A DNA stretch of 64,000 nucleotides. Origin: Saccharopolyspora gloriosae (lineage in GTDB: Bacteria > Actinomycetota > Actinomycetes > Mycobacteriales > Pseudonocardiaceae). How positions within the stretch are numbered: position 1 is the stretch's first letter; every line of letters starts with the position of its first letter. The notes under the pieces are model-generated. The model searched no databases. It was not told the DNA's origin and saw only the letters and a list, made by a program, of their open reading frames with translations. The DNA lies in contig NZ_CP059557.1 in the NCBI RefSeq assembly GCF_022828475.1, positions 2,713,470 to 2,777,469 of the forward strand, read 5' to 3'. This document shows, one piece after another, positions 58,773 to 62,172 of the stretch. The position numbers and the translations under genes are program-made.

Positions 58773-59330
58773 TCAGCGGCCCGCGAGAGCCGGGGCCTCG
58801 GTGAACAGCCGAGGCTCGATCTCCGCGCCCTGCGCGAAGTTCTCCTCGATCTGCGCCTTCTCCTCAGGGTTGGCGAGGTTGTTCTTGCAGTCCGTCCCGG
58901 CGCTCGCCCCGGACATGAGGTCCTCGCACACGCCGGTCCGGTCGTCGGGCAGACCGAAGATGTGGCCGATCTCGTGGGTGGCGATGCGCGGGATGTGGTG
59001 GCCTTCGTCGACGGCCTGCCGTCCCATCCACACCGTGCCGACGCCGAGGGACTCGGTCTGGGCGCGGGGCCATTCGTCGTCGGCGAGCACGGTGAGGTCG
59101 GCTTGGCCGTCGGTGGCCTTCTCCAGCTTGACGTTGGAGAGCTGGCCGTTCCACACCTCGGCGGCCTCGTCGATGGCCGCCTGGAACTCCTCGGCCTGGC
59201 TGGCGTCGTAGGTGACGATGTGCGGTTCGGCTGCTTCACCGGAGACGGCTCCTGCCAGCGGCGCCCCCGTCACCAGCAGAATCGCGGAAGCCGCACCGGC
59301 GAGTGCGGTCGTCATCGAGAACCTGGGCAT
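58773..59330 (-). CDS. Snapalysin-family secreted zinc metalloprotease
   Basis: A 185-residue secreted M7 protease. The signal peptide ends near residue 28-34 (LAGAVSGEAA). The zinc site is HEIGHIFGLPDD at 119-130, the HExxHxxGxxD of snapalysin, with a conserved Cys pair in GVCEDLM and GTDCKNN. It is a small extracellular protease like the Streptomyces small neutral protease. No divergent LysR activator is present, in contrast to Streptomyces snpA loci. Confidence 0.92.
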   Translation of the reverse strand: MPRFSMTTALAGAASAILLVTGAPLAGAVSGEAAEPHIVTYDASQAEEFQAAIDEAAEVWNGQLSNVKLEKATDGQADLTVLADDEWPRAQTESLGVGTVWMGRQAVDEGHHIPRIATHEIGHIFGLPDDRTGVCEDLMSGASAGTDCKNNLANPEEKAQIEENFAQGAEIEPRLFTEAPALAGR

Positions 59331-59654: not shown

Positions 59655-60536
59655 TCACCGGCGGAGCTCTACGAGGTCGAAGACGCGCATCCGGCCAGGT
59701 GAGGTCGCCGCGCAGGTCAAGGGGCGACCGGTGGCGACCCACCGTTCGCGCAGCAGCACCGTGCAGGCGGGCTCGGCGAGTTCCACCCGCCAGCCGGTCT
59801 CGCCGTCCGGTTCGGCGCCGATCACGCCCAGGGCGTCGACGCCGGTGATCCCGGTGGCCGCCCGTGCGTGGTGCTGCGCGGCCTGCGCCGCGGGCGGAAG
59901 TGAGCAGCGGCCCCGCACCCAGCGCGGATCGAGGCGCCCGGCGCGGTAGTCCCCCGCGGCCTCGATCGCGTCCTGCACCGGGACGTTGCCGAGGAGAAAA
60001 CCGTGGGGCAGCAGGACCAGTGCGGGCGCGAACCGGCAGCCGCCGACGTGGCTGCACTCCCAGGTGCGCCCAGGATCCGACGCCGCGAGCGCCGCCGCCA
60101 CCGGCCGCCCGCGCACCGCGCAGCAGGTGTCGTGCCTGCCGTGCGCGCACACCAGGTTCAGCGGTTCCTCGTCGGGTTCACCGGGTGCGTGCACGGCGGC
60201 GGCGAGTTCGGCGTCCGCGGTGAACTCACCGGTGCGGATCGACTCCTGGCCAGGGCGGGAGTCCACCCGGAACCAGCGGCGCGTCCCGCCACGGGATCCG
60301 CGTCCCGGTCTGCGCACGAGGGCCACCCGAGCGCGCTCGGCGGCGGCCCATTCGGACACGGCCGTCACGGCACCGGGATCGATCCCGGACCCGGTCAGCG
60401 CGTCGTGACCCCACGGGCCGGGGTGTTCGATCAGGAACCAGCGCTGCGCGGGCGGCGCGGAGCCCTCCAGCGGATCGGCTGCGGCTTGGGCGACGAAGGA
60501 GCAGCGCGGCCACGTCGGCGCGGGTCGTTGCGTCAC
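59655..60536 (-). CDS. Sucrase/ferredoxin-like (Suc_Fer) protein
   Basis: A 293-residue protein of the thioredoxin-like ferredoxin (Suc_Fer) family. Conserved cysteines are in WPRCSF, CAHGRHDTCCAVRG and WECSHVGGCRFAP, which could bind a [2Fe-2S] cluster. Its exact biochemical role in bacteria is not established; electron transfer is a reasonable inference. Its start overlaps the oxygenase stop by four bases (GTGA), making it the third gene of the repeat-peptide operon. Confidence 0.85.
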   Translation of the reverse strand: MTQRPAPTWPRCSFVAQAAADPLEGSAPPAQRWFLIEHPGPWGHDALTGSGIDPGAVTAVSEWAAAERARVALVRRPGRGSRGGTRRWFRVDSRPGQESIRTGEFTADAELAAAVHAPGEPDEEPLNLVCAHGRHDTCCAVRGRPVAAALAASDPGRTWECSHVGGCRFAPALVLLPHGFLLGNVPVQDAIEAAGDYRAGRLDPRWVRGRCSLPPAAQAAQHHARAATGITGVDALGVIGAEPDGETGWRVELAEPACTVLLRERWVATGRPLTCAATSPGRMRVFDLVELRR

Positions 60537-61786
60537 GTCCTGGTGGCCGGTACGAGCACGCCTTCTCGGAGCAGTCGGCGAACCAAGACCACTTGGTCGG
60601 CTTCGTCGGCTCCCGGCAGTTCTCCCACGCGGAACGTGGCGCCGCTCAGCAGCGCGCGCAGCGGCGCCGCGACCGCGGCGGGCAGCGAGATCCGACGGTC
60701 CGGCAACTCCAGCACCACTTGGCCGTTGTGGTCGAGCAGCCGGTGGTGCAGCCCGGTGCGCCGCCGCACGGCGTCGCCCGCCGCCAGGCCCTCGGCGAAC
60801 GCGGCACCGGCCACCGGCCGAACCGGTTCGGGCCGCCCTCCGGACCAGACCAGGCCGCGGACGTGACGGGCGACGGCTTCGGCGGGCACGTCCCGCAGCG
60901 CGTCGCTCAGCGCCGTGCGCACCGCGTCCAAGTACGGGGCGAGCTGCTCCGGGTCGGCCACGTCGATGCCCAGCGGTAGTGAGGCGCGCAGGTCCTGGTC
61001 CTGGCCGCAGAGCGCGGTCAGCGCCTCTGCCAGCGCGAACCGGGTGAGCACGTGCACGCCGATGGTCAGGTGGGCCGAGACGTCGCCGAGCGCCGTCGCG
61101 GCGTGCAGCCAGCCGCGCGGCAGGTACATCGCGTCGCCCGGCTCCAGCACGGTGTCGATCGCGGGCGGATCCGCGCGGGCGCGGTCGGCGACGGCGCGGG
61201 CGTGGTCGGTCCAGGGCTGATCGCGCAACGGATCGGTGTGCACGGGAGCGTGCACGGTCCAGTGCTTGCGCCCGGCGAGCTGGAGCACGAACACGTCGTG
61301 CACGTCGTAGTGGGCGGAGAACCCGCGCGAGGCGGGCGGCGTCACGTATGCGTTGGCCTGCACGGGATGCCCGAGCTCTTCGGCGAGCACCGTGGTGAAG
61401 TCGATGACGCCGGAGAAGTTCCGGTGCAGCGCCTGCAGAACCACAGTGGTGCCCTCGGCGAAGAGCGTGGCGACCTTGTCGTCGCGCACTTGGTCGCCGA
61501 TCTCCGCGCCCACGCCGCCGGGGCCGGTGAACCAGCCGGAGTCGACCACCGCGCCTTCTCGCGCGAGCCGCAGGAACGGCGTGCGCAGCCCGCGACGCGA
61601 GAGCAGCTCGTCCACACCGTCGAGGTCGAGCACATCGCGGAAGCCGGCGCTGTCGGCGCCGCGCACCAGCAACGGCGCGCGACCCCAGTACCGGTCGCCG
61701 AACCCGTCCACATCGGGTCCGACGACTCGGGCCAGCGCCCCTGGGGGAGCGGCGGTGTCCGCTGATTCGCTGAGCTCAGCGGGCAC
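60533..61786 (-). CDS. JmjC/cupin-4 family Fe(II)/2-oxoglutarate oxygenase
   Basis: About 417 residues from GTG 61786. The double-stranded β-helix carries the iron triad H149-x-D151 (FSAHYDVHD) and H218 (YLPRGWLHAA); VFVLQLAGRKHW and GVHVLT are further marks. This is the family of ribosomal-protein hydroxylases (YcfD, Mina53, NO66), which hydroxylate Arg or His, and of some peptide-modifying oxygenases. A C-terminal winged-helix-like region (LPDRRISLPAAVAAPLRALL) is present. I prefer GTG 61786, with GGAG upstream, over ATG 61816; both overlap the peptide gene's end. The adjacent repeat peptide is the likely substrate. Confidence 0.85.
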   Translation of the reverse strand: MPAELSESADTAAPPGALARVVGPDVDGFGDRYWGRAPLLVRGADSAGFRDVLDLDGVDELLSRRGLRTPFLRLAREGAVVDSGWFTGPGGVGAEIGDQVRDDKVATLFAEGTTVVLQALHRNFSGVIDFTTVLAEELGHPVQANAYVTPPASRGFSAHYDVHDVFVLQLAGRKHWTVHAPVHTDPLRDQPWTDHARAVADRARADPPAIDTVLEPGDAMYLPRGWLHAATALGDVSAHLTIGVHVLTRFALAEALTALCGQDQDLRASLPLGIDVADPEQLAPYLDAVRTALSDALRDVPAEAVARHVRGLVWSGGRPEPVRPVAGAAFAEGLAAGDAVRRRTGLHHRLLDHNGQVVLELPDRRISLPAAVAAPLRALLSGATFRVGELPGADEADQVVLVRRLLREGVLVPATRT

Positions 61787-62069
61787 CGCTGTCCGCTCCG
61801 CCGTCGGCGCCGCCATCGTGCTGACCGGGAGTGCCGCGACCGGTACCGGAGTCGGCGGGTCCTTCGGCGCCGCCGTCGGCTCCACCGTCGTGCTGACCGG
61901 GAGTGCCTTGCCCCGCGCCTGAATCGGCGGGTCCTTCGGCACCGGAGTCGGCGCCGCCATCGGCTCCACCGTCGTGCTGACCAGGGGTGCCTTGTCCGGC
62001 GCCGGAGTCGGCGGGTCCTTCCGGGCCGCCGCTGCCCGAAGTCCTGATGTCCTCGTCCTCGAGTGCCAT
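61776..62069 (-). CDS. Triple-repeat acidic Gly-rich peptide (candidate RiPP precursor)
   Basis: A 97-residue peptide with ATG six bases after AGGAGGAG. Residues 1-16 (MALEDEDIRTSGSGGP) form a short acidic leader-like segment. Three repeats follow at 17-44, 45-68 and 69-97. Each begins EGPADSG and contains GTPGQHDGGADGGA, which is invariant; repeat 2 lacks four residues. DNA of the repeats differs at many third positions (ACC/ACT, CCT/CCC, GAC/GAT, GGT/GGC, GCC/GCG) while the protein stays the same, showing selection on the peptide. No Cys, signal peptide or membrane segment. Translation is coupled to the downstream cupin oxygenase gene. No family recognised. Confidence 0.8.
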   Translation of the reverse strand: MALEDEDIRTSGSGGPEGPADSGAGQGTPGQHDGGADGGADSGAEGPADSGAGQGTPGQHDGGADGGAEGPADSGTGRGTPGQHDGGADGGADSGAR

Positions 62070-62172
62070 GAAGCTCCTCCTCGCCTGTTGACCGACCACG
62101 GCAATGCTTCATCGAGATACCCCGATCAGCCGCGCGCCATGCCTGGACTCACCCGGCGGGAGGAGCCGCCGG

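Follow-up and report, generated by a model that had tools for sequence, protein, structure and literature searches.

The ribosomal oxygenases NO66 (RIOX1), MINA53 (RIOX2) and YcfD are JmjC-type enzymes with a JmjC, a dimerization and a winged-helix domain and an HxD...H metal-binding triad. In NO66 and MINA53, a serine residue (Ser421 and Ser257, respectively) has been described to form a hydrogen bond to the target histidine, and the related JmjC enzyme FIH has been reported to oxidize aspartyl residues too (PMC9994133). Among the ribosomally synthesized and post-translationally modified peptides (RiPPs), β-hydroxylation of Asp by 2-oxoglutarate (2OG)-dependent enzymes is established, the enzymes named being canonical 2OG oxygenases, such as CanE, as well as HEXXH enzymes and an MNIO (PMC12636437). 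Oxygenases of the JmjC or cupin type acting on RiPP precursors are represented by the ornithine hydroxylases BipG and BpmG and the cupin-like PbsQ from biphenomycin-type RiPPs (PMC12257519, PMC12707348). Furthermore, fusions of JmjC_2 (PF08007) with a domain resembling a RiPP recognition element (RRE) were reported in the RRE-Finder study of 2025, together with bacterial homologues 'in RiPP-like genomic contexts' (PMC12710340), and a cupin-4 enzyme was described beside an NHLP-type RiPP precursor in clusters of sponge symbionts (PMC9426513). In this study, a stretch of 64,000 nucleotides from Saccharopolyspora gloriosae (NZ_CP059557.1, positions 2,713,470 to 2,777,469), in the following termed the window, was analyzed with respect to a locus of three overlapping genes on its minus strand, encoding a repeat peptide, an oxygenase of the ribosomal oxygenase type and a Suc_Fer-type ferredoxin-like protein.

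Regarding the function of this trio, we consider it moderately probable that it represents a RiPP-like system, in which the peptide would be a multi-site substrate and the dedicated oxygenase would hydroxylate its repeated Asp residues, aided by the [2Fe-2S] protein.

Conservation of the Three-Gene Locus

The repeat-peptide gene (61776..62069, minus strand) extends from an ATG at position 62069 to a stop at 61776, encodes 97 amino acids plus stop, and is preceded by a ribosome-binding site rated as strong on its sequence (AGGAGGAG, 62074..62082). Residues 1–16 of the deduced product (MALEDEDIRTSGSGGP, 62022..62069), starting with MALEDEDIRT, constitute an acidic, leader-like N-terminus recognizable by conservation of the pattern M-x(0-4)-D[DE]D[IM]. 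This region is followed by three core units, namely EGPADSGAGQGTPGQHDGGADGGADSGA (61938..62021), EGPADSGAGQGTPGQHDGGADGGA (61866..61937) and EGPADSGTGRGTPGQHDGGADGGADSGAR (61779..61865), which were delimited by unit comparison and the tandem array detected by Tandem Repeats Finder (TRF), and each of which contains GTPGQHDGGADGGA once. Together, the units comprise 11 Asp residues, 10 of which belong to a D-x-x-A motif. The gene of the Fe(II)/2OG oxygenase (60533..61816, minus strand; PF08007 JmjC_2, E=3.4e-26) starts either at ATG 61816 or at GTG 61786, corresponding to an overlap of 41 or 11 bases with the peptide gene; since both candidate starts are located inside the peptide gene, the overlap is independent of the start choice. 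Its TGA, ending at position 60533, is in turn overlapped by the start codon (GTG 60536) of the gene encoding the Suc_Fer-type thioredoxin-like [2Fe-2S] ferredoxin-like protein (59655..60536, minus strand; PF06999, E=1.4e-14, 55.1 bits compared to a gathering cut-off of 34.9). A preliminary description of the locus, made from the sequence, had proposed exactly this arrangement of a 97-residue peptide with an acidic N-terminus and three tandem units, a JmjC/cupin oxygenase and a Suc_Fer gene, coupled by overlaps, and was borne out in these points.

Silent changes between the repeats by far outnumbered amino acid changes, as had also been noted. Pairwise comparison of the window units over 26-codon stretches, the second of which extends two codons into unit 3, resulted in proportions of synonymous differences (pS) between 0.39 and 0.53, compared to nonsynonymous ones (pN) between 0.05 and 0.09. 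For seven peptide orthologues of the Saccharopolyspora type, the pooled values were 0.45 (pS) and 0.06 (pN), and the 21 pairwise dN/dS values ranged between 0.05 and 0.13. The peptide reading frame is under strong purifying selection, which, together with its own ribosome-binding site, indicates a genuine peptide whose sequence is under selection.

To evaluate the conservation of the locus, named genomes were scanned for the oxygenase, yielding at least 368 relatives, the best 80 of which were analyzed. The organisms carrying 79 of these closest relatives are, judging from their genus names, what we take to be actinobacteria (Saccharopolyspora, Pseudonocardia, Amycolatopsis, Actinokineospora, Actinomycetospora, Kribbella, Blastococcus, Modestobacter, Curtobacterium, Rhodococcus, Mycobacterium and others), the remaining one being the unverified 'Bacillus sp. 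AZ43'. A repeat peptide was encoded directly upstream of the oxygenase in all 77 loci with readable upstream DNA, the contigs of the other three stopping just ahead of the gene; one peptide was partly masked (L083), and the start of another was cut (L101). The Suc_Fer gene was detected downstream in 73 of the 80 loci using tblastn, in three of them partially (L039, L042, L080). Hence, the peptide is kept beside orthologous cupin genes, a check suggested in the preliminary description, and this strongly supports the coupling of a multi-unit peptide with a dedicated oxygenase and a Suc_Fer protein.

An all-against-all comparison of open reading frames (ORFs) of at least 100 amino acids, covering 6 kb around the trio in the 80 loci, recovered the oxygenase in 80 loci (33 genus labels) and Suc_Fer in 55 loci (25 genus labels), and no third family occurred in more than five genus labels. 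The next families, found in at most five genus labels, resembled chromosome regions common to close genera or spurious frames. As far as tested, the module therefore consists of three genes, and a larger cluster featuring an exporter, a protease or a regulator was not supported by this comparison. When a peptide filter was applied to both strands of the same loci (2.0 Mb), 73 out of 78 matches were located at the oxygenase start; the other five do not resemble the peptide.

Within 394 genomes of the class (S. gloriosae included), the oxygenase was detected at E<=1e-60 in 63 genomes, and any relative of it at E<=0.001 in 132. A profile built from 20 peptides matched in 57 genomes, all of which were among the 63 oxygenase carriers, with the match residing on the same contig as the oxygenase at gaps of -73 to 248 bases. 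No match was obtained for the 331 genomes lacking the close oxygenase, with at most 13 candidates scored per genome. In each of the six carriers without a profile match, an acidic small ORF was recognized by eye before the oxygenase: one encodes a (GGAD)n peptide, three encode Asp-rich peptides of other types behind a D-x-D-[IM] leader, and the products of the other two are acidic and lack repeats. Among the 60 nearest genomes (again including S. gloriosae), 21 encode the oxygenase at E<=1e-60, accompanied by a GGAD peptide in 19 cases and by another Asp-rich core in two. In summary, the module is conserved in about one in six of the sampled genomes of the class (63/394).

A random ORF in GC-rich DNA, or a chance arrangement, is ruled out by the dN/dS values, the flank control provided by the peptide filter and the genome-wide pairing with the oxygenase. 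Likewise, the alternative that the repeats represent a variable linker of a larger cupin protein, which the preliminary description had put forward against its own proposal, is excluded, as the peptide gene has a start codon, a stop codon and a ribosome-binding site of its own.

Peptide Anatomy and Core Classes

The 88 unique peptides obtained are 60–244 amino acids in length and carry the N-terminus M-x(0-4)-D[DE]D[IM] in 78 cases; a Shine–Dalgarno-like motif precedes 91 of 94 peptides. Their cores are composed of 41% Gly, 20% Ala and 16% Asp, lack Cys, and feature almost no Phe, Trp or Tyr. Asp was found in every core (88/88), amounting to 1316 residues in total, or about 15 per peptide, of which 1185 are part of a D-x-x-A motif, and the commonest spacing between them is four residues. 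The position before DGG[AS]D is variable, being occupied by Ala, His, Ser, Gly, Thr, Gln and others. Cores of the GGAD, DGTD/DATD and DADQ types reside behind similar D-[DES]-D-[IM]-x-T leaders and beside related oxygenases and, as read from these sequences, the combination of a conserved leader with differing cores is a RiPP-type pattern. None of 20 scanned peptides matched a Pfam family, and NCBIfam provided no match for the window peptide or for four peptides of other core types.

A hand-picked set of 30 loci encoding more distant oxygenases was also inspected. In eleven of them, a D-[DES]-D-[IM] leader is followed by Asp-rich repeats; four encode short peptides of the type ...DGTD..SSDFI, five encode peptides ending with NDGND or alike, and two represent weaker cases (L139 and L149). 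Suc_Fer adjoins 13 of the 30 loci.

Several of these loci deserve a description of their own. Five loci with oxygenases 32–37% identical and a Suc_Fer gene (L141, L143, L145, L146 and L148) harbor a second core class, in which DGTD, DATD or similar Asp-Thr/Ser repeats follow a DDD[IM]xT leader. A third core class, consisting of DADQ or DPAGxDPAG-like stretches behind a DEDI leader, was observed in L021, L022 and L158 (oxygenases 38–40% identical); no Suc_Fer was seen in the stretch examined for L021. The peptides of L152–L155, having a length of 35–38 amino acids, start with MDP, end with DGTD..SSDFI, and are encoded upstream of a distant JmjC enzyme, with no Suc_Fer in the stretches examined; a neighboring frame in L153 and L154 appeared prolyl-oligopeptidase-like, judged by eye alone. 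Also adjoining a distant JmjC enzyme, peptides of approximately 40–45 amino acids ending with NDGND, SDGND or MNDS were found in L028, L029, L030, L150 and L151, three of these five loci featuring Suc_Fer. The longer peptides of L139 and L149 carry DPDP[ST]D near the C-terminus and are located upstream of JmjC enzymes 31–32% identical. In L159 and L160, the oxygenases of which belong to the GGAD group in the tree described below, the peptides are acidic, non-repeated, and end with GPT[VI]EPGA; the repeat seems to have been lost or replaced in this lineage.

The Oxygenase, the Suc_Fer Protein and Neighboring Genes

The AlphaFold model of the oxygenase reached a pLDDT (predicted local distance difference test) value of 92.4. 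Its best fold match was human NO66 (Z 27.8–29.2, root-mean-square deviation 5.2–5.5, about 26% identity, covering about residues 21–426), followed by MINA53 and YcfD, and a profile search agreed with this result. The predicted model comprises the JmjC, C-terminal dimerization and winged-helix domains of the ribosomal oxygenase fold, the winged helix being represented by predicted strands and helices at residues 349–423. The HxD...H triad (H169, D171 and H238) is conserved without exception in the 44 rows aligned. The alignment column of NO66 Ser421 is occupied by Gly253 in the window enzyme, and by Gly in 38/38 close and 5/6 distant rows. Because of this replacement, the oxygenase was not filed as a histidyl hydroxylase; the exchange of Ser for Gly counts as evidence against His, and for Asp, as the target. 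Arg132, found in 38/38 close and 4/6 distant rows but not in NO66, may be a candidate partner of the Asp carboxylate, which is a guess from the alignment. In a tree of 66 oxygenases, the window enzyme was placed in a GGAD group of moderate support (90/91), composed of 34 GGAD rows and two non-repeat rows, with long branches for some distant rows. Neither the oxygenase nor the Suc_Fer protein matched an entry in PADLOC, and no sign of a defence system was seen for them.

Suc_Fer-like proteins are presumably akin to the thioredoxin-like [2Fe-2S] ferredoxins Aim32 and Apd1. The CX8C motif (C130 and C139) and H163 are invariant in all 24 aligned Suc_Fer proteins, whereas the fourth position, corresponding to the second His of the HX3H motif, is occupied by Asp in 18, by Cys in six, and by His in none of them. 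From these residues, an iron–sulfur redox role of the protein is likely, and its cluster ligation may differ from that of Aim32/Apd1. Its electrons would presumably be passed to the oxygenase.

A snapalysin-like Peptidase_M7 gene (PF02031; window positions 58773–59330, minus strand) was observed near the trio. Upstream of the trio, the window encodes an F420-related protein (TIGR03620), as do L003 and L004. This gene was absent from the 1.5 kb examined in each of L005–L007 and is therefore regarded as lying outside the conserved set.

Proposed Function and Alternative Explanations

In the proposed RiPP-like system, the conserved acidic N-terminus (M..DDD[IM]T) would serve as a leader by which the oxygenase recognizes and recruits the peptide, and Asp would be presented by the flexible, Gly-rich core, commonly at every fourth residue (Asp-Gly-Gly-Ala). 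The oxygenase, representing a bacterial branch of the NO66/MINA53/YcfD fold, would depend on Fe(II), O2 and 2OG to hydroxylate many of these Asp residues, one after another, at the β-carbon. Suc_Fer would supply electrons, which in the simplest case would maintain or restore the Fe(II) state of the oxygenase iron through many rounds of turnover. A peptide rich in Asp and hydroxy-Asp would result, which is probably intracellular, because neither an exporter nor a protease could be assigned to the set; unlinked genes could provide leader removal or export, as they do for some RiPPs. The most natural guess for its role is metal binding. Going beyond this, the trio might form a poly-hydroxyaspartate system, in which (Gly-Gly-Ala-Asp)n is converted into a chain of β-hydroxy-Asp that remains unprocessed and unexported and acts as an intracellular, high-capacity binder of iron or calcium, with the ferredoxin-like protein tying its synthesis to the iron or redox state; this extended version is put forward tentatively, as a possibility that we consider doubtful.

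If this extended version is correct, the trio would be the first family known to us in which an enzyme of the ribosomal oxygenase fold is genetically linked to a repeat-peptide substrate of its own. The Asp-repeat peptides of the actinobacterial clade would then form a broad collection, the cores of which are interchangeable. Already under the main proposal, bacterial NO66 relatives would gain a likely non-ribosomal substrate, and a branch of the Suc_Fer proteins would gain a role. Peptide and oxygenase form a small, testable pair for the iterative oxidation of a repeat peptide. Provided that Asp is indeed hydroxylated, they would be a source of hydroxy-Asp polymers and a tool for the question of how one enzyme serves many equal sites.

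Several observations weigh against the proposed Asp-hydroxylating system. Suc_Fer was not seen in the stretches examined for seven of the 80 loci, one of which (L110) lies at a contig end, and hence is not strictly required. No peptide was recognized in eight of the 30 distant loci (L023, L024, L027, L031, L140, L142, L144 and L147). The absences reported by the peptide profile are soft, owing to the small number of candidates scored per genome and to the one true GGAD peptide that the profile missed. NO66 and MINA53 are described as narrow in their substrate choice (PMC9994133), and His is present in 75 of the 88 cores, so that its modification is possible in those species. Regarding leader recognition, a PqqD profile matched none of eight C-terminal pieces of the oxygenases, and Foldseek and VIA-align, with the whole oxygenase model as query, returned no separate PqqD/RRE match among the matches listed. 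In a model of an artificial peptide–oxygenase fusion (Jatrophihabitans locus L074, with the stop read as Gly), the peptide was disordered (pLDDT 33–48 for residues 1–100) and the leader undocked; this docking test is a weak one, as just 10 of the 35 alignment rows contained the peptide. Finally, IdeR-like and Zur/Fur-like boxes upstream scored no better than shuffled sequence.

Alternatively, the peptide could be an unmodified partner of the oxygenase and Suc_Fer, for example an acidic donor of metal or iron, or a regulator, with the true substrate lying elsewhere. Its acidic, repetitive and predicted-disordered character suits metal binding, and no maturation protease or exporter travelling with the trio was found in the ORF comparison of the 80 loci. 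However, the conserved leader-like N-terminus combined with exchangeable repeats is a pattern typical of an enzyme substrate, the number of GxAD units ranges from 0 to 8 per peptide, and JmjC hydroxylases are reported to act on peptides and proteins, which makes an unmodified partner unlikely.

A second alternative retains the RiPP-like system and assigns the modification to His, as in NO66 and MINA53, or to another residue of the unit, Asp merely being its context. The closest solved relatives are indeed histidyl hydroxylases, and in addition to its wide occurrence in the cores, His precedes 133 of 646 DGG[AS]D motifs. On the other hand, it precedes just 133 of 1133 D[GS][GSA]A motifs, 13 of the 88 cores are free of His (examples being the L038 type and L052, the latter from Pseudonocardia and built from GVSDGGADGG units), Gly takes the place of the His-binding Ser of NO66, and it is Asp, not His, that is common to the distant core classes. 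His as a universal target is ruled out by the His-free cores together with the Ser-to-Gly change, and this alternative as a whole appears rather improbable. The preliminary description had named the single His, or Asp, of each repeat as an attractive target; the first part of this suggestion was not supported, and the second agrees with the presence of Asp in all cores.

Thirdly, the reaction could proceed beyond hydroxylation, for example to a desaturation, to the conversion of Asp into aminomalonate, or to an Asp/Gly crosslink, with Suc_Fer as the electron partner of a second step. In favor of such a course, FIH is described to catalyze desaturation as well (PMC9994133). Judging from their titles, published studies comprise a 2OG-dependent macrocyclization and a cascade from Asp to aminomalonate in peptides. 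The former, a JACS 2025 paper by Xia et al., reportedly deals with 2OG-dependent macrocyclization and could overlap with the present system. In addition, 2OG enzymes that simply hydroxylate are, to our knowledge, rarely equipped with a redox partner of their own, which counts in the same direction. Yet, no sequence feature indicates any such reaction, and Suc_Fer is not present in all loci, so that further oxidation is regarded as quite improbable.

A ribosomal protein as the substrate, as in the case of NO66 and YcfD, with the peptide being either a chance neighbor or a translational leader, would fit the full-length fold match to the ribosomal oxygenases, but is very improbable given that no peptide match was obtained without the oxygenase, that an acidic small ORF precedes it in 63/63 carriers, that purifying selection on the peptide frame is strong, and that, unlike a core ribosome function, the close oxygenase occurs in just 63 of 394 genomes (any relative in 132).

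Comparison with Known Systems

Returning to the favored reading, in which the repeated Asp residues would be hydroxylated, the trio shares individual features with several described systems. No description of it was found among the open-licence papers of PubMed Central (PMC), in agreement with the preliminary description, which knew of no such system; the repeat string likewise occurred in no paper. With the biphenomycin-type systems, it has the JmjC/cupin-type oxygenase and the putative RiPP precursor in common. As described, the BipG/BpmG clusters comprise an MNIO, a radical SAM enzyme, an arginase and a protease, and one Orn residue is modified (PMC12257519, PMC12707348), whereas here the oxygenase is the sole evident tailoring enzyme and the core is an Asp repeat. 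MNIO, B12 radical SAM and arginase genes were not among the widely conserved neighbors within 6 kb in the 80 loci.

The RRE–JmjC fusions belong to the same JmjC_2 family, but the passages on them describe neither a repeat peptide nor a Suc_Fer partner (PMC12710340). The precursors beside the cupin-4 enzyme of sponge symbionts carry an NHLP (proteusin-type) leader (PMC9426513), while no Pfam family was matched by any of the 20 peptides scanned. The RiPP Asp β-hydroxylases resemble the window enzyme in the proposed reaction; they belong to other families (HEXXH, MNIO; PMC12636437) or, in the case of CanE, act on a lasso peptide, judging from the title of a study, and not on Asp repeats. The Suc_Fer protein shares the CX8C motif and one conserved His with Aim32/Apd1, as described for these ferredoxins (PMC8482512), and differs in carrying Asp or Cys in place of the second His of their HX3H motif.

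Since JmjC hydroxylases of RiPPs are known, and none is described with this trio in the texts considered, the system was filed as RiPP-like and outside the named classes. From its sequences, it appears to combine a RiPP-like peptide with an enzyme of the ribosomal oxygenase type. Compared to NO66, MINA53 and YcfD, to which it is related by the full-length fold and the HxD...H triad, the window enzyme shows no sign of a ribosomal substrate, is about 26% identical to NO66, features Gly in place of the Ser contacting the target His, and is encoded together with its own repeat peptide.

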